A stretch of 64,000 nt of DNA from Shewanella psychropiezotolerans (GTDB taxonomy: Bacteria > Pseudomonadota > Gammaproteobacteria > Enterobacterales > Shewanellaceae), in contig NZ_CP041614.1 of the NCBI RefSeq assembly GCF_007197555.1, positions 4,890,001 to 4,954,000 of the forward strand, in the 5' to 3' direction. Both the position numbers and the translations under genes were made by a program. Under the pieces are notes generated by a model that saw nothing but the letters and a program-made list of their open reading frames with translations, was not told the DNA's origin and ran no database searches. Of the stretch, positions 9,893-61,040 are shown one piece after another (position 1 is the stretch's first letter; every line of letters starts with the position of its first letter).

Positions 9893-10015
9893 TTCATGGT
9901 TATCTATCGCCTGCAGCGTGCTTAAGTGCAGATACTTCTACGGCAAGCTGTGAATATATCCCTATACGCTCTGCGGTTTCATCCCTGAAACCGAAGTCCG
10001 CAGCCGCATATATGG
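9893..10015 (-). repeat. Dispersed GCGGCTG repeat, copy 1
   Basis: Read on the minus strand it has the blocks GCGGCTGCGGACTT, hairpin CGGTTTC-AGGGAT-GAAACCG (9974-9993), CAGAGC, a second small hairpin TATA-GGGA-TATA (9955-9966), AGAAGTATCTGCAC and GCAGGCGATAGATAA. The same blocks occur in order at 10.8, 53.3 and 60.8 kb. Open frames across it (with a shared GFRDETAERI peptide) are by-products of the repeat and are not counted as genes. Confidence 0.8.
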
Positions 10016-10067
10016 ACCCATCCCGTTTGCATCTATTTAAACTTCGGCTCACCTTAAAGTGGGGTGA

Positions 10068-10688
10068 AAGAAAGCGGAACAAAGCACTGATTGGGGCTTT
10101 GATACCACAGTAAACGAGTACCGAAAGCTTCAAGGCTCAGAGTTTGGTGCGTCAAAAAAGATATTCAATATATCGTTATTTTTCCTGTTGGCTGAACGTG
10201 ACTTAAAGGCTATAAAAATCGATGCTTTCTCTCACCCTGATCCTTGGAAAAGAAACCTATCAGTAAGAATTATGCTCCTTATCATTCATGAACGAGATAT
10301 GAGCAAGGTTGCATCAGGTAAAATCATGAAGGAAATATATGAAGAAGCGAAAATTAGTGGCGAGCTAAGGAGTTCCATGGTTCAAGCCGTTCGGGGAATA
10401 TCCAAGGCGCAAAAGAGAACTCAAAAAATACTCTCTAAAATAAGAAATAACACTATTGCGCATCAAGATTCAGATGCAATGCTACAGTATGAGCTGATAG
10501 ATAAAGTAGATATAAATTCAGCCAAGGAAACTATCGAAGAGTATTTTGAAGCATCGCATATTTTTTTCGATATATTGCCTGCCTTACTACTTGAGGCAAG
10601 TACATTTCCGTCACTATTATCACAATATTCAAGCTCAGAGCCTAACAAATCAAGCAAGCAGGATACCGTAACTGGCGCCCCTTCTTGA
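10068..10688 (+). pseudogene. RNNTIAH (HEPN-like) ORF lacking a clear start, probably 5'-truncated
   Basis: I do not recognise a named family. The reading frame is open from the stop at 10065 to 10688, and protein-like sequence (EYRKLQGSEFGASKKIF...) already appears before the only plausible initiator, a TTG at 10188 with no SD. From that TTG it is 166 residues, helical and charged, with IRNNTIAHQD near residue 87. This fits the R-x4-6-H signature of HEPN RNases and toxins, which is suggestive only. Copy 1 of the dispersed repeat abuts the 5' side, so the natural N-terminus was probably lost by repeat insertion or rearrangement. No antitoxin-like partner is visible. It may be a remnant of a defence or toxin gene. 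Confidence 0.5.
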
Positions 10689-10797
10689 GGCGTTACGGCA
10701 TATTCGATTGCCATATATTCCCTAATGCCAATGGCTATATTTAGAACATCGACTCTAAACCGTTTCTGTCCAGAAACGAGTTATTAGCCAATAAAGC

Positions 10798-10941
10798 TCA
10801 AATCGAAGAGATGGATAATCTGGTGTGAACGCGGCTGTGACCTTCGACATCAGGGATGATGTCGCAGAGCCCACAGGGATTGTGCTCGCGGCGAGTCACA
10901 GAAGTGTTTGCACATTCGCCCACGGCAGGTGATAGATAAAA
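10798..10941 (+). repeat. Dispersed GCGGCTG repeat, copy 2
   Basis: Plus orientation: AATCGAAGAGATGGATAA, GGTGTGAACGCGGCTGTGAC, hairpin CGACATC-AGGGAT-GATGTCG (10845-10864), CAGAGC, hairpin CACA-GGGAT-TGTG (10872-10884), CTCG-CGG-CGAG, CAGAAGTGTTTGCAC, GCAGGTGATAGATAA. Compared with copy 1, both stems differ in sequence but remain fully paired, and the loops are the same. Confidence 0.8.
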
Positions 10942-10967
10942 CTGAAGTAAAATGATTCAGTAAACTA

Positions 10968-11159
10968 ACCAAATACCAAATCAGCCTAATGAACCCTATC
11001 TTAAAAGCTATTTGAAACTTGCTAGCTGGCAAGTACTCAATGCCTGTTGCAGGCAATAAACACCATTGAAGCCATGGTACTTAGCAAACCACCAAATACC
11101 AAACAAGCCCAATGAACCCAATCTACAAAGCTATTTGAAACTTGCTAGCTGGCAAGCAC
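10968..11159. repeat. Two direct repeats of about 69 bp, 123-bp period
   Basis: ACCAAATACCAAA...GCTAGCTGGCAAG occurs at 10968-11036 and again at 11091-11159 with a few substitutions. Between them, 11041-11090 (TTGCAGGCAATAAACACC, then GAAGCCATGGTACTTAGCAAAC) matches the tail of the repeat copy at 53.2 kb. The whole 10689-11217 interval is repeat-derived; I see no gene in it. Confidence 0.75.
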
Positions 11160-11217
11160 CACATTAGCCAAATAAAACCAATCAAAAAATGTAATCAAGC
11201 TTCATTCGAAGTCTTGC

Positions 11218-11994
11218 CTAAAGCTGTTCTTCGCGGAGGAATACCGGTGCCATAGCTGACGATTCAGCTTCACAGTAATGATATCCAGCGCTGTCAAACT
11301 TGATCAGTTCAGCAAGGGTACTCACCTTGTTATCGAGGATATAGCGAACCATCATGCCGCGGGCTTTCTTGGCGAAGAAACTGATCACCTTGTACTGACC
11401 GTTTTTACGATCTTTAAACACTGGCGTTATGATACTGCCCTTCACCAGCTTAGGCTTAACCGCCTTGAAGTATTCGTTTGAGGCCAGGTTGACAAGGATG
11501 TCGTCTCCCTGCTCATCCAGGGCTAGATTAACCTCATCGGTAATGGTATTGCCCCAGAACTGATACAGGTTAGTGCCTTGCTTATTCGCTAAGCGAGTTC
11601 CCATCTCTAAACGATATGCCTGCATGAGATCCAGAGGACGCAAGAGACCGTATAAGCCTGAGAGTATTCTAAGATGCTTCTGAGCACGTGCGATGCCTTC
11701 AGCGGGCAAAGAGTCTGCATCTAAGCCAGTATAGACATCACCGCGAAATGCATACAAGGCTTGTTTGGCATTTTCGGTAGTGAAGATCGGGCTCCAGGTC
11801 TCGAAACGAGCCGCATTCAAACCAGAAATTTTATCGCTCACCTTCATTAATGAAGCGATTTCTGCTGGCGTCAATTTACGGCACTCTTCGATTAACTGAG
11901 CGCTGAAGTCGACAAGCTTAGGCAAGGTATATTCAGCCGTCCCTGCGGGGTTGTCATAGTCTAATGTTTTTGCTGGTGAAACTAAAACTAACAT
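11218..11994 (-). CDS. yaaA: YaaA, peroxide-stress protein (DUF328)
   Basis: 258-residue cytoplasmic protein of the YaaA/DUF328 family. In E. coli YaaA is induced by OxyR and lowers free intracellular iron during peroxide stress, limiting Fenton damage. Seen: the hallmark start [14 protein letters not shown], the central RLEMGTRL, and a conserved C-terminal [13 protein letters not shown] region; length is normal. It is a single-gene unit; the upstream alsT gene on the same strand ends in a terminator, so yaaA must have its own promoter in the 122-base gap. No OxyR site could be assigned by eye. Confidence 0.93.
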
Positions 11995-12044
11995 AGCTAA
12001 TCCTTATTGAACTTTATTGCTTGCTATCATACTGATGCAAACAT

Positions 12045-12076
12045 AAAAAAACCACGCTAATTCGCGTGGTTTTTTA
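12045..12076 (-). terminator. alsT terminator
   Basis: AAAAAACCACGC paired with GCGTGGTTTTTT around a 6-base loop, 41 bases past the alsT stop; T-tract on the minus strand. Confidence 0.9.
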
Positions 12077-12116
12077 GATAGAGCCGATTCAGTTTACCGA
12101 ATCAGTTCAACGAAAA

Positions 12117-13556
12117 TTATGCCTTTTCAGCCATTTTCGCCGTTGACCACTCACCTTCCTCAATACCCTCAATCTCAGGGAATTGTTTAGGATCGAACGT
12201 TGGGCTAAGCCCTTTTTTCATCTGTTTTTCATAATCTTTAATCACTGCGAATGCCACCTTAGATAACATGGTAATTGCCGCGATATTCACTAGTGCCATC
12301 AATCCCATAGAGACATCGGCAAAGTTCCATACTAGCTGTAGTGATGCTACAGAGCCTGCCATAACCATAGCCAAAACCAGGCCACGGAAGATGTAAAGCA
12401 CCTTCTTGCTCTTAGTTAAGAACATGATGTTGCTTTCTGCATAACTGTAGTTCGCAATGATTGATGTGAAACAGAACAGCAAAATGGCAAAAGAGATGAA
12501 ATACGCTGACCAGCCACCTAACTCATTCGTCAGAGCCAATTGTAGTAGCCCAATCCCTTTCTGCTCCCCAGGGTTATCTAACACGCCAGATAGCAAGATA
12601 ATCGCGGCCGATGCAGTACAGATAACTATCGTATCGACAAACACGCCTATCATCTGCACAAAGCCTTGAGATGCCGGATGATTAGGGTTCGGTGTAGCTG
12701 AAGCCGCAATATTAGCCGCACTACCCATGCCCGCTTCATTAGAGAACAGACCACGAGCAATACCCGCCATCATAGCGCCCATTGCGCCACCAGCAGCCTC
12801 TTCCCAACCAAATGCGCTCTTAACGATTAAGCTCAGTGCTGCAGGCACTTGTTCAATATTCAATACCAGAACAACCATAGCTATCGCTAAATAAGCCACA
12901 GCCATCACAGGCACTATCAGCTCGGAAGCACGAGCGACCTTCTTCAATCCGCCACAGATGATATAGCCTGAAGCGAGTACTATCACGATTCCAACAATCG
13001 TCTTATCGAAACCGAAGGCATTATTGAGGGCATCAGTCATGGTATTGGCTTGAGCCGCATTGAAAGCGAAGCCAAACGCTATGATAAGTAAAATGGAGAA
13101 CAGGGTTCCCATCCAACGCTTACCTAAGCCTTGTTCCATGTAATAGGCTGGGCCCCCACGAAACTGGCCTTCGCTGTCTTTAACTTTATAGACTTGAGCT
13201 AAGGTTGACTCAATGAATGCCGTCGCCATACCTAATAATGCGATTAACCACATCCAAAAAATAGCACCCGCACCACCTACAGTAATAGCGACGGCAACAC
13301 CGGCCATATTTCCTGTACCGACACGAGCAGCCATCGACGTACAGAAGACCTGGAATGACGAAATCCCATCGACCTTTTCACGGCCTTGAATGACCAGCTT
13401 GGCACCATGACCAAATAAACGGAACTGAATAAAACTCAGACGAAGTGTAAAAAAGACACCCGCTGCGACCAGTACATATATAAGCACGCTACCCCATAAC
13501 ATGCCATTAATGGCATTCACTACAGATTCAATAGCGCTAATTAATGATTCAAACAT
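12117..13556 (-). CDS. Sodium:alanine/glycine symporter (AGCS family)
   Basis: 479-residue polytopic inner-membrane transporter of the alanine-or-glycine:cation symporter family (AlsT/DagA type), driving amino-acid uptake with Na+. Seen: about eleven hydrophobic spans; family segments GTGNMAGVAVAITVGGAGAIFWMW and the GGPAYYMEQGLG loop (about 138-149), plus ARGLFSNEAGMGSAANIAA (about 270-288), the AGCS signature. The start ATG gives MFESLISAIESVV. It is transcribed divergently from the phosphoketolase gene across a 426-base AT-rich region holding a CRP-type box. Alanine versus glycine preference cannot be told. Confidence 0.9.
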   Translation of the reverse strand: MFESLISAIESVVNAINGMLWGSVLIYVLVAAGVFFTLRLSFIQFRLFGHGAKLVIQGREKVDGISSFQVFCTSMAARVGTGNMAGVAVAITVGGAGAIFWMWLIALLGMATAFIESTLAQVYKVKDSEGQFRGGPAYYMEQGLGKRWMGTLFSILLIIAFGFAFNAAQANTMTDALNNAFGFDKTIVGIVIVLASGYIICGGLKKVARASELIVPVMAVAYLAIAMVVLVLNIEQVPAALSLIVKSAFGWEEAAGGAMGAMMAGIARGLFSNEAGMGSAANIAASATPNPNHPASQGFVQMIGVFVDTIVICTASAAIILLSGVLDNPGEQKGIGLLQLALTNELGGWSAYFISFAILLFCFTSIIANYSYAESNIMFLTKSKKVLYIFRGLVLAMVMAGSVASLQLVWNFADVSMGLMALVNIAAITMLSKVAFAVIKDYEKQMKKGLSPTFDPKQFPEIEGIEEGEWSTAKMAEKA

Positions 13557-13748
13557 AGTTCTTACTCTATCCCCATGATAATCACGGCAGCTTATACAAT
13601 CAGCTACGAGACTAACGTGTTTTAGTTTTCTTCTATCGATTCAATAAAAATTGGTAATTTTCTTTTAGAATTTTACTTTCGTGAATTTATTACATCACGC
13701 CCACCAATTCTCGCTGCGGCAAAATAGCATACCATCAAAAGCATCTCG

Positions 13749-13764
13749 CGTGATCAAGATCACA
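13749..13764. promoter_or_regulatory. CRP-type box between the AGCS transporter and xfp
   Basis: CGTGA-TCAAGA-TCACA, 9 of 10 matches to TGTGA-N6-TCACA. It lies 193 bases upstream of alsT and 219 bases upstream of xfp, so it could serve either. The rest of the 426-base gap is AT-rich with no other feature I can name. Confidence 0.6.
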
Positions 13765-13982
13765 GTTAATCATTTACATAACACCATCATCACAGGTTAA
13801 AACAAAATTAAGTTAGGCTAGCAACTGATTACACAAGTTTTTCACCTAAACATCGCAACAAAATTGAAATGTTATGACTTTACAAAAACAAGATGCAGGA
13901 CACATTCTTGTAATAAAATTACAAATATAGTGTCTAGCATGAGCTTTGATTAACTTTTTGCTTACTATAAATGGGGTTATTT

Positions 13983-16349
13983 ATGTCACAACCGCAAGAG
14001 ATCAGCGCATTAAAGAAATTTGTAAGAGCCACAAACTTTCTAGCGACATCACAAATTTATCTAAAGAAGAACGTACTGCATAAGCGTGCACTTGCACACA
14101 CAGACATCAAGCCTAGACTGTTAGGTCACTGGGGTACTTGCCCTGGTATCAACTTTGTCTACGCTAACATCAACCGTCTCATCGTTAAAAACAACCGCTC
14201 ATTCGTCTACCTTGTAGGCCCAGGTCACGGCTTCCCAGCAGTTCAGGCTAACCTTTTCATGGAAGGTTCTCTAAGTCATTATTACCCTGAAAACATTCCA
14301 TACAATGAAGAAGGTATCACAGATATCTGTCAGAAGTTCTCAGCAGCTTATGGCTACCCTTCACACGCAAACCCGGAAGCACCTGGACAAATCTTAGAGG
14401 GTGGTGAACTAGGTTACTCACTTTCAGTTGCTTGGGGTGCAGTATTAGATAATCCAGATCTTATTGCGGCATGTCTAATTGGTGATGGCGAATCAGAAAC
14501 AGGGCCTCTTGCCGCTTCTTGGTATGCCAACCGTTTAGTAGACCCTGCCACTAACGGTGCGGTACTACCCATAGTTCATATCAACGGCTACAAGATCTCT
14601 GGTCCGACTCGTATGGGCCGTATGAGCCACGAAGAGTTAGATCTTGAATTCCGTGGCCTAGGTTACCACCCAATCATAGTTGACGATGAGCTCGAAGAAG
14701 ACGTCTATGTGCAGATGGTAAATGCTATGGATAAGTCATATGAGATGATCACAGACATTCAGAAACGCGCGCGCAGCGGTGAAGATGTTGTTAAGCCACG
14801 CTGGCCTGTCATCTTGATGCGTACCGCTAAAGGTTGGACAGGTACTGCGCAGTACAACGGCAAGAAGCTTGAAGGTAACTGCGAATCTCATCAGGTAATC
14901 GTCAATAAGTGTGCTACCGATAAGGGTCACCTAGACGCACTAAACACTTGGTTAGCCAGTTATAATTTCAATGAACTTTATTCGATTAACGATAAAGGCG
15001 AGCTCATCTTCGATGAAGAAATCCAATCTCTACTTCCACCTAAGCAGTTAACTTGTGGTCAGCAACACTTAAGCTACGGTGGTGAGGTGGTTCGCGCACT
15101 GACTAACCCTGATCTATCTAAACTAGCCTACGGTCCAGAAACACCTCGTGGTACGCGTGGTCACTCAATGTACAAGATGGGTGAGTGGATGCGTGATGCG
15201 ATGAAACTCAACCGAGATCAACGTAACCTGCGTATCTTTAGTCCTGATGAAACTTACTCGAACCAGCTTCAAGCCGTATTCGAAGAGACTAACAGAGCAT
15301 GGCAGTGGCCCATTGAAGAGTGGGATACCGACATGGCCCGTGACGGTCGCGTCATCGAGCTATTATCCGAGAACTTGCTCTTCGGTATGATGCATGGTTA
15401 CACAGTGACGGGTCGTCACGCCATGTTCCCTACTTATGAAGCATTCTCACAAGTTGTCTCCTCGATGGCTGACCAATACTGTAAGTATGTCTATGCCAGC
15501 CAGGGCGTTCACTTCCGTAAGCCAGTACCAGCCTGTAACGTGGTACTCTCTTCGCTTCTAGAACGCCAAGATCACAACGGTTACTCGCATCAGAACCCAT
15601 CATTCTTAGGCGCCATGCTTGAGAAGCACCCAAAGATTATCTCAGCATATCTGCCTGCAGATGGTAATACCACTCTGGTTTACACAGAACGCGCCTACGC
15701 GGATCGTGATAAGTTAAACATCATAGTTGCCGGCAAGAAAGACTTGCCACAATGGTTATCACTCGATGAAGCACGTGAACAGGCTAAAAACGGAGTCATG
15801 GTTTGGGACTTCGCTTCCGATGAAAACCCAGATGTGGTTCTGGTTGGTTGTGGTGATTACGTTACCCAAGAAGCCATGGCCTCTTTGGTCTTAATCAGAG
15901 AGATCTTACCACGCGTTCGTATCCGTTTCGTCAGCGTTACTGAACTCACCAGCAGCGGTCTTGGTAGCTTAGACTTCCAGAGCAAGCCTTGGTTGATGGA
16001 TGAAGTTTTCACCTCAGACAAGGGCGTTATCTTTAACTACCATGGCTACCCGAACACCATCAAGAAACTGGTATTCGATTATAAAGGCAGTGACAGATTC
16101 AGAATCAAGGGCTATGAAGAGGAAGGATCTACCACAACGCCATTCGATATGGGTGTCAGAAACGGAACCTCGCGTTACCATCTCGTTATCGACATGGCCT
16201 ACAAGCTGTTCCAGCAAGGTGTTATCGATGAGACACAACATGTCACCATCACCACAGACATGCTTCAGCGTCTGGTGGAACACAGAAATTATATCAAGGC
16301 AAACGGTGTCGACCCCATCAGCCTGGACAACTGGATCTGGACTCGCTAG
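13983..16349 (+). CDS. xfp: Xfp, xylulose-5-phosphate/fructose-6-phosphate phosphoketolase
   Basis: Thiamine-diphosphate enzyme that splits xylulose-5-P (and often fructose-6-P) with phosphate to acetyl phosphate plus a C3 or C4 sugar phosphate. 788 residues, the normal size. Seen: LGHWGTCPGINF, the GPGHGFPAVQANL motif, the ThDP-binding GDGESETGPLAASW (about residues 165-178), and a conserved FSPDETYSNQL. ATG 13983 was chosen over the in-frame ATG at 13971 because GGGG then lies at SD distance and the family starts near SQPQEI. It is a single-gene unit with its own terminator. Together with tal and pgi nearby it would connect pentose phosphates to acetyl-P; whether acetate kinase completes the route is outside the window. 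Confidence 0.94.
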   Translation: MSQPQEISALKKFVRATNFLATSQIYLKKNVLHKRALAHTDIKPRLLGHWGTCPGINFVYANINRLIVKNNRSFVYLVGPGHGFPAVQANLFMEGSLSHYYPENIPYNEEGITDICQKFSAAYGYPSHANPEAPGQILEGGELGYSLSVAWGAVLDNPDLIAACLIGDGESETGPLAASWYANRLVDPATNGAVLPIVHINGYKISGPTRMGRMSHEELDLEFRGLGYHPIIVDDELEEDVYVQMVNAMDKSYEMITDIQKRARSGEDVVKPRWPVILMRTAKGWTGTAQYNGKKLEGNCESHQVIVNKCATDKGHLDALNTWLASYNFNELYSINDKGELIFDEEIQSLLPPKQLTCGQQHLSYGGEVVRALTNPDLSKLAYGPETPRGTRGHSMYKMGEWMRDAMKLNRDQRNLRIFSPDETYSNQLQAVFEETNRAWQWPIEEWDTDMARDGRVIELLSENLLFGMMHGYTVTGRHAMFPTYEAFSQVVSSMADQYCKYVYASQGVHFRKPVPACNVVLSSLLERQDHNGYSHQNPSFLGAMLEKHPKIISAYLPADGNTTLVYTERAYADRDKLNIIVAGKKDLPQWLSLDEAREQAKNGVMVWDFASDENPDVVLVGCGDYVTQEAMASLVLIREILPRVRIRFVSVTELTSSGLGSLDFQSKPWLMDEVFTSDKGVIFNYHGYPNTIKKLVFDYKGSDRFRIKGYEEEGSTTTPFDMGVRNGTSRYHLVIDMAYKLFQQGVIDETQHVTITTDMLQRLVEHRNYIKANGVDPISLDNWIWTR

Positions 16350-16397
16350 TAAGGATCATTAAAGCAACAAGATAGAAACACGTTAACAACATAACTA

Positions 16398-16426
16398 AGT
16401 GCATTCTTTTAGAATGCACTTTTTTT
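16398..16426 (+). terminator. xfp terminator
   Basis: AAGTGCATTC and GAATGCACTT form a 10-bp stem with a short loop, followed by seven T. Confidence 0.92.
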
Positions 16427-16448
16427 ATGCCTTAAAACTATAAACGTA

Positions 16449-16462
16449 ATGATTTAAATCAT
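16449..16462. promoter_or_regulatory. FNR/EtrA-like palindrome upstream of ompA
   Basis: ATGATTTAAATCAT is a perfect 14-base palindrome with 8 of 10 matches to TTGAT-N4-ATCAA, about 145 bases before the ompA start. A role in anaerobic control is inferred. Confidence 0.4.
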
Positions 16463-16606
16463 ATTTACATTGAAAATAGATCGCAATCCCGTAGATAATA
16501 GCGACAGCTAGCGATAAAACTAAAGGAATCCCCTCTCAAAGTGCTGGCAGTGTTTCACCTCCAGGTGGAACAGCATTGGGGAAAGATAAATAACAAAGGA
16601 TTTGAA

Positions 16607-17707
16607 ATGATGAACAATACATTGAAAGCTATTCTGCTGACTTCAATGCTCCCTTTCGCTGCTAACGCGGCACAAGAACTCACTCCTTGGTATGTCGGTG
16701 GCGGTCTTGGCGTAAACAATTACGAGCCAAACTGCGACATGAAGACCATGAAGAGCTGTGGCAAAGATGATCCTTACGCATGGGATGTGTTTGGTGGTTA
16801 CCTTTTCAACGACTATTTCGGCGTTGAATTAGGCTACCGTGATCTTGGACGTGCCGAGTGGGTCGATTACGCCAACAAGATGAATGATGTTGGCGCTAAA
16901 GGATTAACCTTAGGTGTTGTCGGCTTCTGGCCAATCGCTGACCGCTGGAGCCTATCGGCTGAAGCCGGTGCGATGAATTACATACTGTCGAACAATAAAG
17001 AATATGGCAGTGAGTATTACAGTGACAGCGGTATTGCACCATACATTGGCGCAGGTATCGGATATAACATCACCGAAAACTTGAAACTTCAGGCTAAGTA
17101 TCGTCGTTATGAGAACTTAGATGAAGACAAGTGGAACACACTGGCCATGGAAAGCAACTACTGGGGCCTTGAGCTTAGCTACCGTTTCGGTACTCCAGCA
17201 CCCGCCGTTGTTGCTCCATTGGTTCTAGCTCCTATTGACTCAGATAATGATGGCGTCACCGATGATATGGATCAGTGTCCAGACACTCCAGTCAATCACA
17301 AGGTTGATGCGAAAGGCTGTACTGTTTACATTGAGACTACCGAGCAGCGTGATGTAGGTTCTATTCAGTTCGCGAATAACTCATCTGTGGTAAAGACTGA
17401 GTCTTTTGAGCGCATTGAAAAGCTGGCAACATACATGAACAAGAATCCTAAATCGACAGTGTTGATTTCGGGTCACGCTTCTGATGTAGGTAGAGCCGAC
17501 TACAACATGACCATATCGGACAAGCGTGCGAACGCCGTTGCTAAGATTCTTGTCGAGAAGTATGGCATTAGCCAAGATCGCGTAGAAGCTAAAGGTTTCG
17601 GTATCACACAACCTGTTATCCAAGGTAATAGCGTCGAAGCAAACAAGGCTAACCGTCGTATCGAAGCTCACGTCACTGGCGTAAAAAGAGAAGCACTGAT
17701 CAAGTAA
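16607..17707 (+). CDS. OmpA-family outer-membrane porin
   Basis: 366-residue outer-membrane protein. An N-terminal signal (about 20 residues, cleavage near AANA-AQE) is followed by an eight-strand OmpA beta-barrel domain (about 25-195; WYVGGGLGV, GYRDLGRAEW, final YWGLELSYRFG), a linker with a thrombospondin-type-3-like Asp repeat (DSDNDGVTDDMDQCPDT), and a C-terminal OmpA peptidoglycan-binding domain (about 240-360; ISGHASDVGRADYNMTISDKRA, KANRRIEA). ATG 16607 is preceded by AAAGGA at six bases; the next codon is also ATG. It tethers outer membrane to peptidoglycan and may be a slow porin. It is a single gene with a strong terminator. Confidence 0.9.
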   Translation: MMNNTLKAILLTSMLPFAANAAQELTPWYVGGGLGVNNYEPNCDMKTMKSCGKDDPYAWDVFGGYLFNDYFGVELGYRDLGRAEWVDYANKMNDVGAKGLTLGVVGFWPIADRWSLSAEAGAMNYILSNNKEYGSEYYSDSGIAPYIGAGIGYNITENLKLQAKYRRYENLDEDKWNTLAMESNYWGLELSYRFGTPAPAVVAPLVLAPIDSDNDGVTDDMDQCPDTPVNHKVDAKGCTVYIETTEQRDVGSIQFANNSSVVKTESFERIEKLATYMNKNPKSTVLISGHASDVGRADYNMTISDKRANAVAKILVEKYGISQDRVEAKGFGITQPVIQGNSVEANKANRRIEAHVTGVKREALIK

Positions 17708-17728
17708 TCACTCTCTCTTGTCGATACA

Positions 17729-17760
17729 TAAAAATCGCTGCCTGGTGCAGCGATTTTTTT
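17729..17760 (+). terminator. ompA terminator
   Basis: AAAATCGCTGC and GCAGCGATTTT with a CTGGT loop, then a T-tract; 22 bases after the stop. Confidence 0.92.
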
Positions 17761-19368: not shown

Positions 19369-19381
19369 GGAGTAAGACTGG

Positions 19382-37248: not shown

Positions 37249-37302
37249 ATGAAAATATTCAGCGATCACTTTTTTACTTTCTTTTTTATTCCCCCCATCT
37301 AG
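37249..37302 (+). CDS. pheL: PheL, pheA leader peptide
   Basis: 17-codon ORF MKIFSDHFFTFFFIPPI, with six phenylalanines, equivalent to E. coli PheL. Stalling at Phe codons when tRNA-Phe is uncharged should favour the antiterminator described in the next entry. It is 102 bases before pheA. The peptide sequence itself differs from E. coli; only the Phe richness and position are conserved. Confidence 0.9.
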   Translation: MKIFSDHFFTFFFIPPI

Positions 37303-37368
37303 GGAGGCGGAATTTCGGTGTAAAAACGAAAGTGAAAATTCCAAAGCCTCCCTAAGGGAGGCTTTTTT
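37303..37368 (+). promoter_or_regulatory. pheA transcription attenuator
   Basis: Terminator AAAGCCTCCC-TAA-GGGAGGCTTTTTT at 37343-37368. The competing antiterminator is also visible: GGGAGGCGGAATTTC right after the pheL stop (37303-37317) can pair with GAAAATTCCAAAGCCTCCC (37333-37352). The GCCTCCC strand is shared between the two, as in classical attenuation. Confidence 0.88.
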
Positions 37369-37404
37369 GTAACCGTTTTTTGTAGTAGTAAGATTGAGGG
37401 CAAC

Positions 37405-52357: not shown

Positions 52358-52378
52358 AACAGATTAATCCGAATTCGC

Positions 52379-52924: not shown

Positions 52925-53158
52925 CTGCTCTTCTCCCAAGATAATCTTATTTAATTATAGTGATTAAACTTTTCGCTTAGTCTAACGAGGTTCTAGGACC
53001 TAGTACCTCGTCAACCCTATGTGTACGTTCGTCTCATTTAACCAAATCTTAACCTAAAGGATTTTGCCCTGTTTTAATAGAGTAAAAGATCAAAAACTTG
53101 CTGACTTGTCGAATAACAAGTTTCTGAAATATCTTTGAGTAGGGCTCATTGGACCTAA

Positions 53159-53375
53159 TTGTTATTTGATTAGTTTGCTAAATACCATAGCTTCGCTGGT
53201 ATTTATTGCTTGCAGCAGGTGCTGTATAGGATATACGAATGTCGTGATCACATGGATGTGAAAGAACGGCCTCATATGCAGATACTTCAGTGGGACGCTG
53301 GCTCTTAATTTCATAAGAAGTGTCCCTATACGCTCTGCGGTTTCATCCCTGAAACCGAAGCCCACAGCCGCATTA
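53159..53375 (-). repeat. Dispersed GCGGCTG repeat, copy 3 (head and tail)
   Basis: On the minus strand GCGGCTGTGGGCTT, hairpin CGGTTTC-AGGGAT-GAAACCG (53338-53357), CAGAGCGTATAGGGA, GAAGTATCTGCAT, then about 100 bases later a tail TGCAAGCAATAAATACC and GAAGCTATGGTATTTAGCAAAC that matches 11046-11090. The hairpin is identical to that of copy 1. A minus-strand frame over it is not counted as a gene. Confidence 0.75.
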
Positions 53376-53699
53376 TCTACATCGGGTTATTAGTTTCTTC
53401 GATTGAAGGTATAGAGAAAATGTAACTCATTTAGAATCAAAACGGTTTACTTGTCTGAGAGCAGGTTTTAAATATCTTTTTGATTGGTTCATTGGGCAGG
53501 TCTTGTACTTGGCATATTCTGATTACCGATATTGCATTGTTATCTACCGCCTGTCCGGCGATAATTGTGCGCTCTTTTTTTGAGAAGGTTCTGTGACACG
53601 GTGAATATGGCGTAGCCATGTGCCTATGAACGAGAAGCATGGAAGCTGAACTGGCCTTTAGATAGGATATCATTCAAGCACAGTCCATATAGCCTCAGC

Positions 53700-53800
53700 C
53701 AAAACATCTGACCTACGCGGACGTAGAAAATGTATGGAACATTTTTGGCCATGTCACGGAAGGTCACAGCCGCGTTCACACCTGAATATTTATTTCTTCC
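53700..53800 (-). repeat. Dispersed GCGGCTG repeat, copy 4 (head fragment)
   Basis: On the minus strand GGTGTGAACGCGGCTGTGAC plus CTTC is identical to copy 2 over 24 bases, then the sequence diverges. Two perfect hairpins follow, which as read on the plus strand have GGA in the loop: AAAATGT-ATGGA-ACATTTT (53727-53745) and CTACG-CGGA-CGTAG (53713-53726). The interval 52925-54099 is non-coding and repeat-rich overall. Confidence 0.6.
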
Positions 53801-54020
53801 AATTAGAGTTTTCTGGTTGTAACTCATTTTTAGACAGAAGCAAATTAAAGCATTGGGTCTAATTAAGCTGACATTGATTAGAAAAAGTATCTTAGTTTAT
53901 TCGAAGACTCTAATTCGCTGCGACCCCTTTATCTGCCTTTATCTGACATTGGCCGCCATCACTGTCAATATTTATGAACATAAGTTCGGCAACTGTTTTA
54001 GGCCTCAGCTATCAGTTTTC

Positions 54021-54050
54021 GGCCAGGTCTATATTGCATTAGACCTGGCC
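54021..54050 (+). other. Perfect 11-bp inverted repeat upstream of the CoA-transferase gene
   Basis: GGCCAGGTCTA-TATTGCAT-TAGACCTGGCC, 50 bases before the ATG, followed by TTGCTAGTATTTC. It may be an orphan terminator, an operator or an attenuator; no coding sequence precedes it. Confidence 0.55.
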
Positions 54051-54099
54051 TTGCTAGTATTTCGGCAGCTGACAATTAAAAACACCCAGGGAAATATCA

Positions 54100-55384
54100 A
54101 TGGCACCAATTGTTTGTACTAGTGCGCTCGAAGCCGTCTCTCTGATCCAGAGTGGCGAAAACCTCTGGACCCATTCCATGGGAGCCACCCCCAGGCTGCT
54201 ACTGAATGCCCTGGCGGAACATGCCTTGAGTCGACAAGATCTGACTCTGCTGCAACTCCACACCGAGGGCGCCGAGTCACTGAGTAATGACAATCTCAAA
54301 GGGCACCTGCGCCATCGCTGCTTCTTCGGCGGCTTGCCGACACGGCGACTGCTGCAACAGGGAGACGCAGATTATGTGCCTATCTTCCTCTCCGAAGTGC
54401 CAAAATTGTTCCGTTCGGGGAACAGAAGATCGATACCGCAATCATTCAGGTCTCACCGCCGGACAAACATGGCATATGCTCGCTGGGGATCTCGGTGGAA
54501 GCCACACTGGCGGCCTGTCAGGTGGCGGGCAAGATCATCGCCCATATCAACCCGCAGATGCCCCGTACCCACGGAGACGGTTTCATTCACTACAGTAAAT
54601 TTTCCGCCGTCTATGAAGAAAGTTCAGCACTGCCACAACATCCGCTAGCCGCCAGCGATGCAGTCAGCTTGGCGATAGGTAATAACGTAGCCGAGCTGGT
54701 CAGAGACGGTGATTGTCTGCAGATGGGCATAGGCGCCATTCCCGATGCTGTGCTCAGCTGTTTGGGGGCCATAAAGACCTAGGGATCCATACCGAGCTCT
54801 TCTCCGACGGGGTGCTCAATCTGGTTGAGCTTGGTGCCGTTAACAACAGCAAGAAGAAGGTCTATCCAGGCAAGACAGTGACCGGCTTTGCCCTGGGCAG
54901 TCAACGCCTGTATGACTATGTCGATGATAATCCCTCGGTAATATTCATGGATATCGAGCAGGTTAATGACACCGCCATCATTCGCAAGAACCCCAATGTC
55001 ATGGCGATCAACTCGGCGCTGCAGATCGATATCTCGGGCCAGATTTGTGCCGACTCACTGGGCACGAAGATCTACTCCGGCGTCGGTGGTCAGATGGACT
55101 TTATCCGTGGTGCCGGCCTGTCCGAAGGTGGCCGCTCTGTGATTGCCCTGCCGAGCACCGCATCGGGGGGCAAGGTGTCGAGGATTGCCACCGTACTCTC
55201 ACCCGGCGCTGGGGTGGTAACCACCCGGGCCCATGTCCACTATATCGTCACCGAATACGGCTGCGTAAACCTGCGGGGGCGTTCACTCATAGAGCGGGCT
55301 AGGGCCCTTATCGATATTGCCCATCCTGACTTCAGGGAGCAGCTGTGTCGAGAGACCTTCGACATGTGGGGACTCAGTGTCTAG
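54100..55384 (+). pseudogene. Acetyl-CoA hydrolase / CoA-transferase family gene with two frameshifts
   Basis: The three frames together give about 428 residues, a full-length protein of the acetyl-CoA hydrolase / 4-hydroxybutyrate (or butyryl) CoA-transferase family, which moves CoA between acyl groups. Seen: CTSALEAVSLIQSGENLWTHSMG, MGIGAIPDAVLS, GIHTELFSDGVLNLVELGAV (active-site Glu region), YSGVGGQMDFIRGAGLSEGG and IVTEYGCVNLRG. Frame breaks at the GGGG run 54417-54420 (SG-EQKIDTAIIQVS resumes) and the GGGGG run 54764-54768 (GGHKDLGIHTELF resumes); one G at each restores it. The GC content is clearly higher than in its neighbours, which suggests transfer. It is either a decaying gene or an intact one with under-called G runs. 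Confidence 0.82.
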
Positions 55385-55552
55385 TGGCCATCTATACATA
55401 CGAAGTCAAAAACAAAGACAACCTATTATTAATCAACCACTTGCCATGACCCAAGGATGTTATTGGTTAACTATATCTAGGTTTATTTCTCTGCTAGTAA
55501 TATAAAGGAAATCATCTGTAACAATGAGTTGGTGAAATAGGCTAGGCTGCCT

Positions 55553-55681
55553 TTACACTGGTTTTTTCCAGAACTGGGCATCGCCATTTTTTATGTTTAA
55601 TTGATAAGGTTCGAAGCCATACTTTCTGTAGAAAGTAAGTGCAGTTTTATTGCCTTCTTGGACTTTCAAACTAACTTTTCA
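55553..55681 (-). pseudogene. C-terminal remnant of a GNAT acetyltransferase
   Basis: About 42 codons on the minus strand read VSLKVQEGNKTALTFYRKYG and go on FEPYQLNIKNGDAQFWKKPV to a stop at 55553. The EGNxxALxFYRKxGF segment is the motif-B end of GNAT N-acetyltransferases. The upstream part of the gene is missing; an in-frame stop precedes it and dsdC ends 4 bases away. It marks a recombination junction at the edge of the dsd cluster. Confidence 0.7.
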
Positions 55682-55684
55682 AGT

Positions 55685-56641
55685 TTATAAACTGTCACAT
55701 CTATTGGCCACAGCTCCCTCATCGGCCTGCTGTTTTAGCCAGTTAAGAAAGGCTTGGACTCTCGGGTTTGGCTCTATATCGGCACTATAAACAGCATGAT
55801 ACTGGTAGCTGGCGGGAGTACTTAATGAGGCAAAAGGCGCGATAAGTTCACCGCTTCGTAGACGTTTATCCACCAAGCGTTTACGGCCTATAGCGAGTCC
55901 CGCATTATTCATGGCGGCAATAACGGCCAAATCAGAGCGATCGAAGCTTAAGCTGCGACTATTATCTATGCCCATTATTTGATGGTACTTCGCCCACTCT
56001 AACCACTCGGCATTAAAGGCCGCTTGTGGCCAAGCTTTGCAATCATGCAGCAAGGTACATTGACTCAAGTTGTGTGGCTTACCGATAAGATCGAATCGCT
56101 CGGCATAGTCTAGACTGCATACGGGCGTCACTTCTTCAGACATTAACTTTATACTAGCGAGGCCCGGAAAAGGCCCGCTGGCATAATAGAGGGCCACATC
56201 GATAAATTGGGTGCGAAAGTTAACATCTTCGTTACCCGTAAGAATATCGAGCTGAATAGCTGGATAAGCTTGATGAAAATCATGGATCCGCGGCACCAGC
56301 CAACACTGAGTAATTGAGGGACGGGCATAAATAGTGAGCCTGCCCGATAATTCATTGGTTCGAATCTCATTAAGCTCTTCATCTAGCTGAGAAAATAATA
56401 ATGTACAACTGCGAAACAGCCGTGCTCCTTCTTCGGTCAATTTAAGTTGCTTATGTAAACGATGAAACAGCTTAAATCCAAGCTCTTGCTCAAGCTTGCC
56501 AATTCTATGGCTGACCGCACTGGGTGTCAGATACAATACCTGAGCTGTCTGAGTAAAAGACAGGTTCTGCGCCGCATTAACGAAGGTATTAAGATTCGCC
56601 AATTGACTCGCGCCCAGTTGTGCGTGCCTGCCTTGATACAT
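55685..56641 (-). CDS. dsdC: DsdC, LysR-type activator of D-serine deaminase
   Basis: 318-residue LysR-type regulator. The N-terminal HTH is about 18-75 (FVNAAQNLSFTQTAQVLYLTPSAVSHRIGKLEQELG), followed by the co-inducer domain. Segments LSGRLTIYARPSITQCWLVP, LTGNEDVN, CTLLHDCKAWP and FDRSDLAVIAAMNNAGLAIGRKRLV correspond closely to E. coli DsdC, which activates dsdXA in response to D-serine. It is on the same strand as and downstream of dsdA, with 169 bases between, rather than divergent as in E. coli. Confidence 0.88.
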   Translation of the reverse strand: MYQGRHAQLGASQLANLNTFVNAAQNLSFTQTAQVLYLTPSAVSHRIGKLEQELGFKLFHRLHKQLKLTEEGARLFRSCTLLFSQLDEELNEIRTNELSGRLTIYARPSITQCWLVPRIHDFHQAYPAIQLDILTGNEDVNFRTQFIDVALYYASGPFPGLASIKLMSEEVTPVCSLDYAERFDLIGKPHNLSQCTLLHDCKAWPQAAFNAEWLEWAKYHQIMGIDNSRSLSFDRSDLAVIAAMNNAGLAIGRKRLVDKRLRSGELIAPFASLSTPASYQYHAVYSADIEPNPRVQAFLNWLKQQADEGAVANRCDSL

Positions 56642-56721
56642 AAGCTATGTGTCCCACTAAAATTATCTAATGCAGTTTATGATACAAGTCTGACTTTTGC
56701 ATTTGAAAATAAACCAATACC

Positions 56722-56763
56722 ATGCCGTACTTATACCTAATGCAATTGGTATAAGTACGGCAT
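56722..56763. repeat. 16-bp perfect inverted repeat between dsdA and dsdC
   Basis: ATGCCGTACTTATACC and GGTATAAGTACGGCAT with a 10-base loop. There is no T-tract. The arms contain words like the MITE ends (ATACCA, TACTTATA), and a partial relative (AATTGGTATCAGTACG) lies at 17799, so it may be a MITE relic; it may also stop dsdA transcription. Confidence 0.55.
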
Positions 56764-56810
56764 AAACCCGTTTAGATTTATCCTGCGCTGCATACGTAAG
56801 AGCGGTTAAT

Positions 56811-58151
56811 TCAGGAAAGGCCTACAAGCTCAGCACGCTCGAGATACTTATTCATTTCATCCGTTGGCACCATGCCGCCCCCCGTCGCCCACACCAAGTG
56901 AGTCGCGTTGGCCAGCTTACTTTTAAGCTGCATCCTATCGAGGTAAGCATCATTGGCAAGCACATGAACTATGCCAGGTACCCCAGCAAGGGCGGATGGC
57001 TCAAGCTTAAGCTGCTCAGTTTTGTACATCATCCCCAATAACTTATACATCTCATCATCTTTAATGGTGATATAACCATCGAGCAGTCGCTCCATCGCTC
57101 TACCAACAAATCCTGATGCACGTCCAACTGCTAAACCGTCGGCCGCAGTAATATTATCTATGCCTAAGTCTTGAACCGAAATTTTATCATGTAAACCAGT
57201 ATGCACACCTAACAACATACAAGGTGACTGAGTCGGCTCGGCGAAGATACAGTGAACATTATCACCAAAGGTTTGCTTAAGGCCAAATGCCACGCCGCCA
57301 GGGCCGCCACCAACACCACATGGAAGATACACAAATAGCGGATGCTCAGCATCAACCAATATCCCCTGATCGATAAACTGTTGTTTCAGGCGCTCACCGG
57401 CAACGGCGTAACCTAAGAACAAGGACGTAGAGTTTTCATCATCGACAAAGTGGCAGAAGGGATCTTTGAGTGCTTCTTCACGACCACGTTCAACGGCAAT
57501 GCTATAGTCAAATTCATACTCGACCACATTAACCCCATGACTACGCAATTTATCCTTTTTCCACTGTCGAGCGTCAGATGACATATGCACGCTCACCTTA
57601 AAGCCTAGCGTTGCACTCATGATACCGATAGATAAACCTAAGTTACCTGTAGAGCCCACGGCTATTTTATATTTGCCAAAGAAGGCTCTAAATTCATCCG
57701 AGTCTAACTTGCTGTAATCATCATCAAAACTGAGTAGGCCTGCTGCTAGCGCCAACTTCTCGGCGTGCTGTAGCACCTCATGAATACCACCTCTAGCCTT
57801 AATTGAACCAGAAATAGGCAGTAACGCATCAAGCTTGATCATCATTTGACCTGGCAGCTCACACTCATAGCGCTCAGCCAACGCAGCTTGCATGGCAGGA
57901 ATGGCCTGTAGTGGTGACTCTATGATGCCATTCGTCGCACGAGTATCAGGGAAAGTACGACAAAAGAAAGGCGCAAACCTTTGTAAACGCTCGCTTGCAT
58001 CTTGCACATCTTTATCGGTCAAACCAACATAAGGGAGTGCCGTGACGTAATCGGTAATATTAGGGTTAAACCAGCTCAGAGGCTTAAGGCTAATTAAGTT
58101 CTGCAGCAATGGAAACTCGTTTACCAGCTGTTCTACTTGTTGCTTATTCAT
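56811..58151 (-). CDS. dsdA: DsdA, D-serine ammonia-lyase
   Basis: PLP enzyme deaminating D-serine to pyruvate and ammonia. 446 residues, like E. coli DsdA (442). Seen: [10 protein letters not shown], the PLP lysine in [16 protein letters not shown] (about Lys119), [37 protein letters not shown], the [15 protein letters not shown] region. It is 11 bases downstream of dsdX, so the two form an operon, with the regulator gene dsdC after them. Confidence 0.94.
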
Positions 58152-58162
58152 AATCTACTCTT

Positions 58163-59494
58163 CTATACAACTTGAGATAATAATAGGATCCCGCCTAGGG
58201 AGGCAAATGATGCCAATACGGTAGCGGCGGTGAAATACTTGAAGGTGTCTTGAATCGAGGCGCCCAGATACTGCTTAACCAGCCAGAATAAGGAGTCATT
58301 CACATGGGTCCAACCAATAGCACCCGCACCAATGGCCAATACGATAATTTCAGGTTTTACATTTGGATATATGCCCAAAAGTGGCATCACGATACCTGCA
58401 GCGCTCAACATGGCAACCGTGGCTGAGCCTATAGCCAAGTGCATGATGGCAGCGACGAGCCAAGCTAAGATAATGGGATTTATCTGCACGGTTTCCAAGA
58501 TACTACCTAAACCCTCACCCATGCCAGAATCGATCAGCACGCCGTTAAAAGCGCCTCCGGCACCAATGATCAGCAAGATTCCTGCGATAGAGCCGAAGCA
58601 ATCATTGGTTATCTGCTGGATTTTATCCATCGACATGCCGCGACTCAGACCCAGAGTAAAGTAGGCTACGAGTACAGAGATAAACAGGGCCGTAATAGGG
58701 TTACCTAAGAAGGTCACTAACTCATAAAACGAGCTGGTTTCGGGTAGCCATAAACAGATAATGGTCTTGCTAATCATGATCAGCAAGGGCAGTAATATGG
58801 TAAACAAGGTAATACCAAAACCGGGCAAGTCGTTATGGGCAGTGGATGCCTGCAGGTCAACAGGGGCTTGAGTAAAAGGTAACCGCTTACCCCACATACG
58901 TACCCACAGTGGGCCGGAGATAATGGCGGTTGGAAAACCAATGATTATGCCATATAGAATGACCTTACCCACGTCGGCACCCAGCATGCCTGTTACTGCA
59001 AGTGCAGCAGGATGAGGCGGCAGCATACAGTGCACTGTCATCAAAGCTACAGCCAGTGGAATACCGACCTTAAATAGAGGCACATTGGCTTCTTTGGCGA
59101 TAGTGAACACCAGAGGAATAAGCAGTACGAAACCTACCTCCACAAAAACAGGAATACCAGCAATAAAGCCCACTGTCATCATCACGATATCTGCACGCTG
59201 CTGTCCCAAACGGTTCAGCATGGTCTTGCCAATGCGCTCAGCACCACCTGACACTTCGAGCATCTTACCTAGAATAGTACCAAAACCTATGATCAGGGCC
59301 AGAAAACCGAGTGTACCGGCCACGCCCTTTTCGATAGAGTTCATGATATCCCCAAGCGGCATCCCCATAGTCACGCCGACGAAAATACTGGATATGATAA
59401 GAGAAATAAACGGATGTAATTTAAGTTTAACGATACAGAATATAATGATGCCGATCGATAAAGCCAGAACCGACAACAGTGCGACGTTAGTCAT
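58163..59494 (-). CDS. dsdX: GntP-family permease, probable D-serine transporter DsdX
   Basis: 443-residue inner-membrane permease of the gluconate:H+ symporter (GntP) family with about twelve hydrophobic spans. Seen: GFGTILGKMLEVSGGAERIG, GIPVFVEVGFVLLIPL, CMLPPHPAALAV, and SATVAMLSAAGIVMP, conserved in GntP proteins. Its position 11 bases upstream of dsdA, with dsdC nearby, argues for D-serine uptake rather than gluconate. ATG 59494 with GAGG at nine bases starts the first membrane span; the upstream 29 codons are basic and Pro-rich, without support. The gap 59495-59985 is A/T-rich with no feature I can name. Confidence 0.85.
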   Translation of the reverse strand: MTNVALLSVLALSIGIIIFCIVKLKLHPFISLIISSIFVGVTMGMPLGDIMNSIEKGVAGTLGFLALIIGFGTILGKMLEVSGGAERIGKTMLNRLGQQRADIVMMTVGFIAGIPVFVEVGFVLLIPLVFTIAKEANVPLFKVGIPLAVALMTVHCMLPPHPAALAVTGMLGADVGKVILYGIIIGFPTAIISGPLWVRMWGKRLPFTQAPVDLQASTAHNDLPGFGITLFTILLPLLIMISKTIICLWLPETSSFYELVTFLGNPITALFISVLVAYFTLGLSRGMSMDKIQQITNDCFGSIAGILLIIGAGGAFNGVLIDSGMGEGLGSILETVQINPIILAWLVAAIMHLAIGSATVAMLSAAGIVMPLLGIYPNVKPEIIVLAIGAGAIGWTHVNDSLFWLVKQYLGASIQDTFKYFTAATVLASFASLGGILLLSQVV

Positions 59495-59985
59495 TTTCGA
59501 GTACCTCGAATTGTTTAAATTTAAATTGATTAAAGCTAACGGTGATAGCCTAATAGGCCGTGGTCTTTTTATGGGAGGCAAGTATGCGATAGCTTAAAAA
59601 AATAGACAAAGTATGAATATTTTGGCATTGGTTGAACCTAATTCACCCTAAACATCGGCAACAAATAGGCAGAAAAGGACTAGCAAAGCCCTAAAAGTTG
59701 ACTATAAATTGACTAGGAAAGGACTAGAAAAGAACAGAGATTGTTAATGGCTGAATTAGAGGGCCGAACATGGTTAAACATCCCAGAAAATACGCTTGGT
59801 CACGACAAGTTTAGAGCCAATATCCAAGCCCATTTAACTTTAAGATTCGGCCACCTAGCCTAGGACATCCAATCAAACCTGAATAAATAAAAAGCTAATT
59901 GGATCCCCCCCTTATTGCTGGCTATACTTTGTGAGGAGTGAACAAAATCTAGCCATTTCTTGTCCATTTAATGGCCTTATTAGCA

Positions 59986-60552
59986 CTATTTTTGATTAAT
60001 CTGAATACGCTCTATATCTAAAGACATTCTTTCTAATAGCATACAAAGCGTTGCAAATAAAAGGTCAAACGCACATCTAACACCAACTAATGAAATTAAA
60101 TTTTTGCTGTTTCGACTGATTCCATTTTTTTGAAAGACATTACTAAGACTAACTCTAAATGCCTCTTCCAAATCTGGGTCTTTATTCAATATTGATTGCA
60201 TTTTATTTTTGTTATTTTGGCTATCAAGTTGAGCATCTGTTATTCGATGTGCAAAATCATTTCTGATGCTCTTGAATAGCTGTAATTGCTCAACTATTTC
60301 AGCTTTAACTAAGCCTAATCTATAGCACATTTCAATTTTTGCAGAAAAACTACCAAGTGGCGCGTATGCGCCACTCACTAATTTGTCGTCTTTTTTCATA
60401 GGTGGTAGTAAAAACGAAACTATTAAATTCTCAAGAGCAACATCTAAAATGGAACCAGCTAAAATTACAGCTCCTCTGTCACTTTCAGATGAAATTAAAA
60501 TATGATATTTAATAAAAACTTCCGAAGCTTCTTTACCTACAATACTAGACAT
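59986..60552 (-). CDS. MltR-like protein with an RNDFAH motif
   Basis: 188 residues, predicted all-helical. The segment AYAPLGSFSAKIEMCYRLGLV and the following SIRNDFAHRITDA resemble MltR (mannitol operon repressor) family proteins. The R-x4-H motif is also the HEPN hallmark, so an RNase or RNA-binding role is possible. ATG 60552 has AGGGGA at five bases. There is no mannitol gene nearby: dsdX lies downstream, beyond a 490-base gap, and a dispersed repeat upstream. Low GC and isolation suggest an accessory gene. The name is family-level only. Confidence 0.65.
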   Translation of the reverse strand: MSSIVGKEASEVFIKYHILISSESDRGAVILAGSILDVALENLIVSFLLPPMKKDDKLVSGAYAPLGSFSAKIEMCYRLGLVKAEIVEQLQLFKSIRNDFAHRITDAQLDSQNNKNKMQSILNKDPDLEEAFRVSLSNVFQKNGISRNSKNLISLVGVRCAFDLLFATLCMLLERMSLDIERIQINQK

Positions 60553-60759
60553 CAATTCCCCTATAATGCTAACAGCTTATTAAATAGACACAGCGATAAC
60601 ATTGTTATCTGTGCTGCATTTCAAATATTATCTGTGCGCCTTGATAAGACGCCATCACCTACTAAAACCTATTGTTTTAAAAGATAACACAAAAGTAGGT
60701 AGAACATTATCGATACACTGTCATATGGAGGGGAGTATGAACTATGGGGTTTAAGCAAT

Positions 60760-61040
60760 AAAGCTAAAATCGAAGAGAAAAAACCCGAGTGTAGATGCGG
60801 CTGAGAGCTTCCAAAACAGGGACGTTTTGGCAGAGCCCACATGGAAGTGTTCACGGCGTCTCGCAGAAGTATCTGCACATCTCCCGCTGGGAAGCGTTAG
60901 ATGAAATTGAAGCTACAAGCTTCAAACCCACCGCCCAATATCAAAAAATCAAAAACAGGCGACCCGCAGAACCTTCTCAAAGTAAAGAGTGCACATCCCC
61001 CCGCCGGAGGCGATAGGTAACAATGAAGGTACGACCTTCC
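60760..61040 (+). repeat. Dispersed GCGGCTG repeat, copy 5
   Basis: AAAATCGAAGAGAAAAAACC, GTAGATGCGGCTGAGAGCTT, hairpin CCAAAAC-AGGGAC-GTTTTGG (60811-60830), CAGAGCCCACATGGAAGTG, GTTCACGGCG, GCAGA-AGTA-TCTGC (60862-60880 region) and, further on, CGCC-GGA-GGCG (61002-61012) with GATAGGTAACAATGAAGG. Same 7-6-7 hairpin geometry as copies 1-3 with a third, unrelated stem. Located between the MltR-like gene and acpS; no gene in this gap. Confidence 0.75.

Follow-up and report, generated by a model that had tools for sequence, protein, structure and literature searches.

The closest described relatives of the element reported here are the YPAL/RU-2 repeats of Yersinia (YPAL stands for Yersinia palindromic sequences, reportedly described by De Gregorio in 2006 and treated further by Delihas in 2007), units of ~168 bp inserted near the ends of genes. 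Target duplications of 3–26 bp are given for YPAL in an excerpt of PMC2229807. Other systems share single features with it. Repetitive extragenic palindromic sequences and bacterial interspersed mosaic elements (REP/BIME), with their REP-associated tyrosine transposases (RAYT), are likewise dispersed hairpins whose inverted and clustered copies lie near gene 3′ ends; the CsrB/CsrC/RsmXYZ sponges carry GGA hairpin loops of the CsrA consensus; the TwoAYGGAY RNA (RF01731), predicted to bind CsrA (excerpt of PMC4333381), likewise has two AYGGAY-loop hairpins and an outer stem; and in class 1 integrons of Acinetobacter flanked by miniature inverted-repeat transposable elements (MITEs), small elements likewise stand at both ends of exchangeable cassettes (excerpt of PMC10969869). 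We analysed dispersed hairpin repeats in a stretch of 64,000 nucleotides (nt) from Shewanella psychropiezotolerans (NZ_CP041614.1, positions 4,890,001 to 4,954,000), hereafter the window. These repeats are a known kind of MITE, YPAL, in a wider and better-defined form, and there is good support for reading them as mobile elements of the YPAL type in which folding of one strand is under selection.

A reading of the window from its letters alone (the sequence-only reading) had reported four repeats, at 9.9, 10.8, 53.3 and 60.8 kb, each with a hairpin of 7-6-7 geometry, here called P2, and some with a second GGA-loop hairpin. All four were located where it had placed them, the letters of stem and loop were correct, and the second hairpin is real (P3). 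In the window, four AGGGAY loops are closed by a perfect 7-bp stem; 100 first-order Markov windows had none. The conserved fold exceeds these hairpins: two covarying stacked stems, P0 of 8 bp (for example GTGTGAAC/GTTTGCAC) and P1 of 7 bp (CTGTGAC/GTCACAG), enclose P2 and P3. We aligned 23 copies with MAFFT without structure, excluding those with large insertions or missing ends (alignment A1), and drew on them a structure of 28 pairs, consisting of P0 (8), P1 (7), P2 (7) and P3 (3+3). Pairing reached 95.3% of 644 cells, compared with 79.0% in shuffles, none of 500 shuffles being as high; double-sided changes were present at 21 of the 28 pairs, and slid structure controls paired at just 25.7–47.6%. 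These pairing and double-change values support the selection on a folded nucleic acid that had been proposed, and a chance origin of the repeats is ruled out by the Markov windows and by covariation measured against shuffles. RNAalifold recovered P0, P1, P2 and the inner part of P3 from A1. A short hairpin, P4, follows the core; in a crude scan its best 4-bp stem was fully paired in 18 of the 23 copies, the scan having picked a different stem in two of the 18. One pair of orthologous copies (L084 and L086) differs in the core by one wobble change and one variable loop base, differences too few to reveal compensatory change between orthologues, and the locus of the 60.8-kb copy is too divergent for that purpose.

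Pairing was asymmetric between the strands in A1 and in three larger alignments, A2 (41 rows), A3 (104 rows) and A4 (107 rows, the pan-gammaproteobacterial matches). G.U pairs stood to A.C mismatches as 48:9, 36:5, 162:21 and 72:23 in A1–A4, where the means of shuffles were 84.5:52.2, 113.9:99.8, 342.3:225.7 and 282.1:264.5. The strand that carries the GGA loops was also the more stable fold in 22/23, 31/36, 89/92 and 74/97 cores, a comparison limited to cores of 70–110 nt, with 0, 5, 12 and 10 rows falling outside. The large excess of G.U over A.C and the better folding of the GGA strand argue that selection maintains the fold of this strand only, as RNA or as single-stranded DNA.

The family is wide. 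One copy used as a query gave 46 matches at E≤1 in the 6.45-Mb genome; a covariance model, R1, found 64 places there at E≤0.1 and matched 112 of 117 Shewanella genomes and, across the order, 56 of 247 genomes in 16 of 87 genera. The five Shewanella genomes without an R1 match under stricter filters (G001, G004, G025, G039 and G049) may help to date a loss or gain. A search of the genome collection for an exact core pattern (19 fixed bases) gave at least 119 stretches. Among the 80 pattern loci listed, 78 have titles that we assign, from general knowledge, to gammaproteobacterial groups, and the titles of the remaining two (L243 and L259) state Proteobacteria only; R1 found 107 matches within these 80 loci, and a locus of S. 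hanedai (L264) is a close match. A 266-nt query for the element had no match on plasmids or phages, and the core pattern was found in two viral contigs.

The RU-2/YPAL sequence in an excerpt of PMC2759123 folds like the repeat core, and R1 matches a Yersinia proxima locus (L210) and the loci L128–L130 of the Rfam family RF02770 (Ysr224), the latter on the strand opposite to RF02770. RF02770 matched 20 of 247 genomes, exceeding the Rfam cut-off in just three, and had no match in the S. psychropiezotolerans genome at E≤0.001. Nineteen of the 20 are also R1-positive, and in the twentieth R1 matches the RF02770 locus (L130) on the other strand. RF02770 therefore recognises this same element, read as its complement, and the strand that Rfam models appears to be opposite to the one constrained to fold. 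Shewanella repeats and YPAL/RU-2 have the same core architecture, linkers (GCGTC..GAGCC..TTTACGGCG) and pair of ANGGAN hairpins. In contrast to YPAL/RU-2, the full Shewanella unit measures ~275–285 nt, has its own 5′ region and 3′ tail, carries nested modules in some copies and forms inverted pairs around cargo. Neither the YPAL relationship nor this arrangement figured in the sequence-only reading. Outside subscription papers we found no account of these repeats in Shewanella; Romine 2008, on mobile elements of S. oneidensis, could describe them.

Like YPAL, the repeats lie close to gene 3′ ends or terminators, and copies tend to turn their 3′ side towards the gene. A gene reads into the 3′ side in 43 of 53 copies of the S. 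psychropiezotolerans genome (the best 54 of 64 matches, one without a locus, with open reading frames (ORFs) called by a simple rule) and in 29 of 36 scored copies of other Shewanella genomes (from 38 loci, one per genome). The bias is weaker at pan-gammaproteobacterial loci, 41 against 24 (100 of the 107 matches, of which 29 overlapped ORF calls and six had no 3′ ORF).

P2 and P3 both present an ANGGAN loop, with their GGAs mostly 23 nt apart. The P2 loop is ANGGAN in 22/23, 33/41, 94/104 and 85/107 rows of A1–A4, and the spacing is exactly 23 nt in 22/22, 23/32, 88/88 and 70/84 of the copies that have both loops; in A4 the P3 loop belonged to the search pattern and is not independent, which does not apply to the P2 loop. 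Systematic evolution of ligands by exponential enrichment (SELEX) gave the CsrA consensus RUACARGGAUGU, mostly in six-base loops, and the site of RsmE is an ANGGAN hexaloop, two such sites 10–63 nt apart being open to bridging (excerpt of PMC7652899). The repeat core has ANGGAN hexaloop hairpins and two sites within that range. The sequence-only reading had suggested that repeat transcripts could titrate CsrA. In favor of this, the loops match CANGGANG and their spacing is mostly fixed; against it, the 3′-side gene mostly runs on the opposite strand. Judged from the loops, titration of CsrA is plausible, and docking of a CsrA dimer is our best guess at what the two loops do. In contrast to the CsrB/CsrC/RsmXYZ sponges, the repeats are dispersed and multi-copy with two sites per core, and neither the window nor the scanned loci matched the Rfam families of these sponges. 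The RF01731 model had no match to the repeats at E≤5 in 16 loci scanned. In Pseudomonas putida, pull-downs of Rsm proteins recovered a palindromic RNA from intergenic regions next to ISPpu8 copies (excerpt of PMC7937890).

The R1 matches of three genomes were sorted by position (62 of the 64 of S. psychropiezotolerans, 55 of G069 and 59 of G099), with those within 6 kb counted as adjacent. Left-minus/right-plus adjacencies made up 9 of 14, 15 of 20 and 16 of 20, in total 40 of 54, raw counts to be set against the quarter expected if all orientation classes were equally common. In these genomes neighbouring copies are mostly inverted head-to-head pairs around other genes, heads inward and tails outward, mostly 0.8–5.5 kb apart and in two cases much closer. 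G069 and G099, two related species, have 14 pair sites in common, at one of which (L328/L355) the G099 copies are more than 6 kb apart. Outer flanks of the shared sites are ~87–99% identical. In contrast, only 2–33% of the G069 cargo is alignable (pieces of at least 180 nt and at least 80% identity) at 12 of the 14 sites, with 53% and 62% at L333/L340 and L334/L344. Thus, at 12 of 14 shared sites cargo has been largely replaced while the borders were conserved. In L084 (1752–2602), an 851-bp segment absent from L086 and present in one species only lies within an inverted pair, beside a CTAAC motif.

Twenty cargo proteins, the largest or those chosen for interest among 81 ORFs of at least 110 amino acids (aa), were compared with PADLOC models. 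Nine matched at E≤0.001, six of them below 1e-10 (PDC-S56, PDC-S20, DitA, a SIR2-STAND protein, PDC-M45C and PDC-M36A), and none of 20 random window proteins of at least 200 aa did so. Because the cargo and control samples differ in selection and source, this enrichment is suggestive only. Some cargo resembles anti-virus defence genes. Pfam matches in the cargo were GmrSD/HNH, a weak FRG, SUKH, GNAT and several insertion sequence (IS) transposases, while 16 of the 40 cargo proteins compared had no match. Conserved borders and changing cargo in one species pair suggest that element pairs act as borders within which accessory genes swap, an exchange that may proceed by recombination in the shared borders.

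A block that we call attI-like, by homology, lies in 11 of 35 pair loci (~7 distinct sites), between one element head and the cargo. It matches a region of Shewanella phage M16-3 that has small ORFs on one side and, on the other, an annotated LexA site with an integron integrase gene. A 221-nt part of the block matched in 64 of 114 Shewanella genomes and had no match in that of S. psychropiezotolerans. Integron integrases above the curated cut-off are present in G000, G012 and G113 but not in G069 or G099. Given the distribution of the block and the absence of an integrase above cut-off from G069 and G099, an integron route would explain only part of the pairs; where the block is present, exchange would be carried out by an integron integrase supplied in trans. 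Strict-consensus attC sites numbered 0 in the 35 pair loci, by a weak scan with no positive control. The attI-like block is a further likeness to MITE-flanked class 1 integrons. In contrast to those, the Shewanella pairs are not class 1, and their cargo consists of accessory, defence-like and unknown genes. The block is also found on conjugative plasmids of Enterobacter and Moellerella (L371 4001–4189, L372 4001–4150), beside annotated fosG and dfrA1.

We propose a joint reading, to which we give a probability of about 0.5: the repeats are non-autonomous elements of the YPAL/RU-2 type, the GGA strand would act as RNA, one CsrA/RsmA dimer would dock both loops, so that the transcript is stabilised or CsrA titrated, and pairs serve as cargo borders. 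Several points weigh against it. P2 departs from ANGGAN in 22 of 107 pan-gammaproteobacterial matches, and its stems have 7 bp, as against four or fewer pairs in most SELEX ligands (excerpt of PMC7652899). The genes on the 3′ side transcribe the complement, which counts against a role for CsrA, and Rfam files Ysr224 on the complement of the GGA strand. Folding energies of single copies are modestly better than those of shuffles (four copies, z −1.3 to −3.05), so that the case for the fold is covariation, not stability, and A2–A4, being fitted to R1, are biased towards its structure. Because the pairs of G069 and G099 mostly occupy shared sites, pair counts are not independent, and exchange is deduced from this single species pair. 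No clear target-site duplication was seen by eye in the S. psychropiezotolerans copies, nor did a comparison made at one locus reveal an empty site. More broadly, and with distinctly less confidence, we speculate that one old CsrA-docking RNA family extends across the Gammaproteobacteria and is used in Shewanella as inverted borders of many small cassette-exchange loci on each chromosome, an orphan attI-like site being present in some of them; this would connect the CsrA network with integron-type recombination and with the turnover of anti-phage defence. The relationships described here unite YPAL/RU-2, Ysr224 and the Shewanella repeats in one structured gammaproteobacterial family, give it a testable candidate protein partner, suggest that the strand filed in Rfam is opposite to the constrained one and bring to light small, predictable loci at which bacterial accessory and defence-like genes appear to be swapped.

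A folded strand could also be single-stranded DNA that an HUH transposase (REP/RAYT or IS200/IS605-like) cuts or pastes, its contacts being the constant loops; the sequence-only reading had named such a REP-like element as the main alternative to CsrA. In single-stranded DNA G.T is tolerated better than A.C, so the strand asymmetry fits here too, as do the inverted pairs, the alternating arrays outside the genus and the presence of Y1_Tnp in 68 of 117 Shewanella genomes. However, G003, G008 and G040, each with 31 of 31 scored element matches, have no Y1_Tnp match (earlier loss is possible), and the loops match an RNA–protein consensus. In contrast to REP/BIME elements, GTAG is lacking 5′ of P2 in nearly all rows: it stands 5′ of P2 or in its 5′ arm in 0/23, 0/41, 0/104 and 5/107 rows of A1–A4 (absent from all 168 rows of A1–A3 and from 102 of 107 of A4), where mostly CTT or CGT precedes P2. 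GTAG is found on the 3′ side of P2 in 5, 7, 26 and 1 rows, and elsewhere in the core of some copies. The missing GTAG and the element-rich genomes without Y1_Tnp weaken this explanation, which we regard as unlikely, if the least so of the rivals.

The position of the copies bears on a second possibility, that the transcript of the neighbouring gene, on the complement strand, folds at its 3′ end and sets termination or decay. Reports exist of such a role for ERIC, and it has been proposed for Yersinia YPAL. It agrees with the 3′ side facing the gene end in most S. psychropiezotolerans copies, with intrinsic terminators seen by eye at or near two tails (L188 and L189) and with the Ysr224 transcripts reported in Y. 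ruckeri (excerpt of PMC12112432). The G.U/A.C asymmetry and the folding energy favor the other strand, and the constancy of the loops is left unexplained, which makes this somewhat less probable than the transposase explanation.

The sharp 3′ terminus of the unit and its 5′-truncated, tail-only copies (L181, L184 and L182, by eye) recall a retroelement like a short interspersed nuclear element, with RNA copied by target-primed reverse transcription at terminators, which would leave copies truncated at the 5′ end, with variable heads but a constant 3′ tail; the target duplications of YPAL cited above agree with this. However, RVT_1 matched in 66 of 117 Shewanella genomes, and G008, G021, G029, G031 and G040 have 21–31 of 31 scored matches with neither RVT_1 nor Y1_Tnp. 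No autonomous element sharing the tail came to light, and the truncated copies looked at are few. We consider such an origin improbable. As a cause of element presence, co-occurrence with RAYT or with a reverse transcriptase fails in both cases. Template switching in quasi-palindromes with gene conversion, which would make perfect stems without selection on a fold and could account for the unmatched P2 arms (by eye) of three insert-bearing copies (e, L183 and L195), is very improbable in its pure form, since it predicts symmetrical G.U and A.C counts, 44 of 47 A3 cells (a model-selected set) retain pairing of the P2 arms despite long insertions between them and the long-range stems P0 and P1 covary too.

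The unit terminates sharply at a hairpin, ACTTGT-TATCCG-ACAAGT: of 25 tail matches, 22 stop no more than two bases from one point and two run 4 and 5 bases further, the remaining match being the query itself. Some copies are tail-only, and in some, hairpin modules of other types are nested in the P2 or P3 loop. Inspection by eye gave no clear replication-strand bias of the R1 matches of S. psychropiezotolerans.

In the window, the 9.9- and 10.8-kb copies (a and b) form an inverted pair enclosing a plus-strand ORF (10188–10688, 166 aa, TTG start) that matched nothing in Pfam or PADLOC at E≤0.001. Copy a (minus strand) spans core and P4 region at 9892–10007 (R1 match 9900–10021, 110.2 bits), with P2 CGGTTTC-AGGGAT-GAAACCG at 9974–9993 and P3 TAT-AGGGAT-ATA at 9955–9966; another head replaces its P0 5′ arm, and P0 is unpaired there. 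Copy b (plus strand) is a full unit of ~273 nt with 5′ region, core, P4 and 3′ tail (10762–11034; nhmmer 10763–11036). Its core P0–P3 lies at 10822–10913 (R1 match 10819–10939, 131.6 bits), P2 CGACATC-AGGGAT-GATGTCG at 10845–10864, P3 CAC-AGGGATT-GTG at 10872–10884 and the terminal hairpin of the tail at 11018–11034; an extra tail-only copy follows on the same strand (11042–11157, nhmmer). The core of copy c (minus strand, 53273–53371; R1 match 53250–53386, 59.6 bits; P2 at 53338–53357) adjoins a tail on the same strand at 53101–53219 (nhmmer, seed-profile positions 157–278). What had been read as a head fragment at 53.7 kb followed by two other hairpins is a single interrupted copy, e (minus strand, 53839–53449; nhmmer 53839–53677 and 53606–53449), with other hairpin modules nested inside P2 (53708–53748) and inside the P3 region (53599–53675); by eye, its P2 arms are of different types and unpaired with each other. 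Copy d (plus strand) has its core at 60788–60878 (R1 match 60785–60904, 124.6 bits), P2 CCAAAAC-AGGGAC-GTTTTGG at 60811–60830, P3 CAC-ATGGAA-GTG at 60838–60849 and P4 CGCT-GGGA-AGCG at 60885–60896, where the automated P4 scan chose another stem. Its 3′ side is turned towards the 3′ end of an ORF that we take to be acpS. A second, 5′-incomplete element fragment, from the P0′ side to P4, lies on the plus strand at 60966–61067 (nhmmer 60990–61067).

Beyond the window, two loci (L018 500–1800 and L017 1040–1850) hold direct tandem arrays of the unit with ~277–285-nt spacing, and L090 carries three copies, as against one copy and remnants in its relative L082. Outside Shewanella, alternating-orientation arrays resembling BIMEs are present in L105 (1326–2243) and L261 (798–1530). 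In L003 (1–1450), a group II intron domain (RF00029, 1364–1440) follows a putative reverse-transcriptase-like ORF; because the sequence after the intron starts CCGACAA, like the terminal hairpin, the intron may have entered an upstream tail. An Rfam scan of the window at the gathering threshold placed no family over the repeats; elsewhere in the window it found Phe_leader (RF01859) at 37251–37371, with 80.3 bits.

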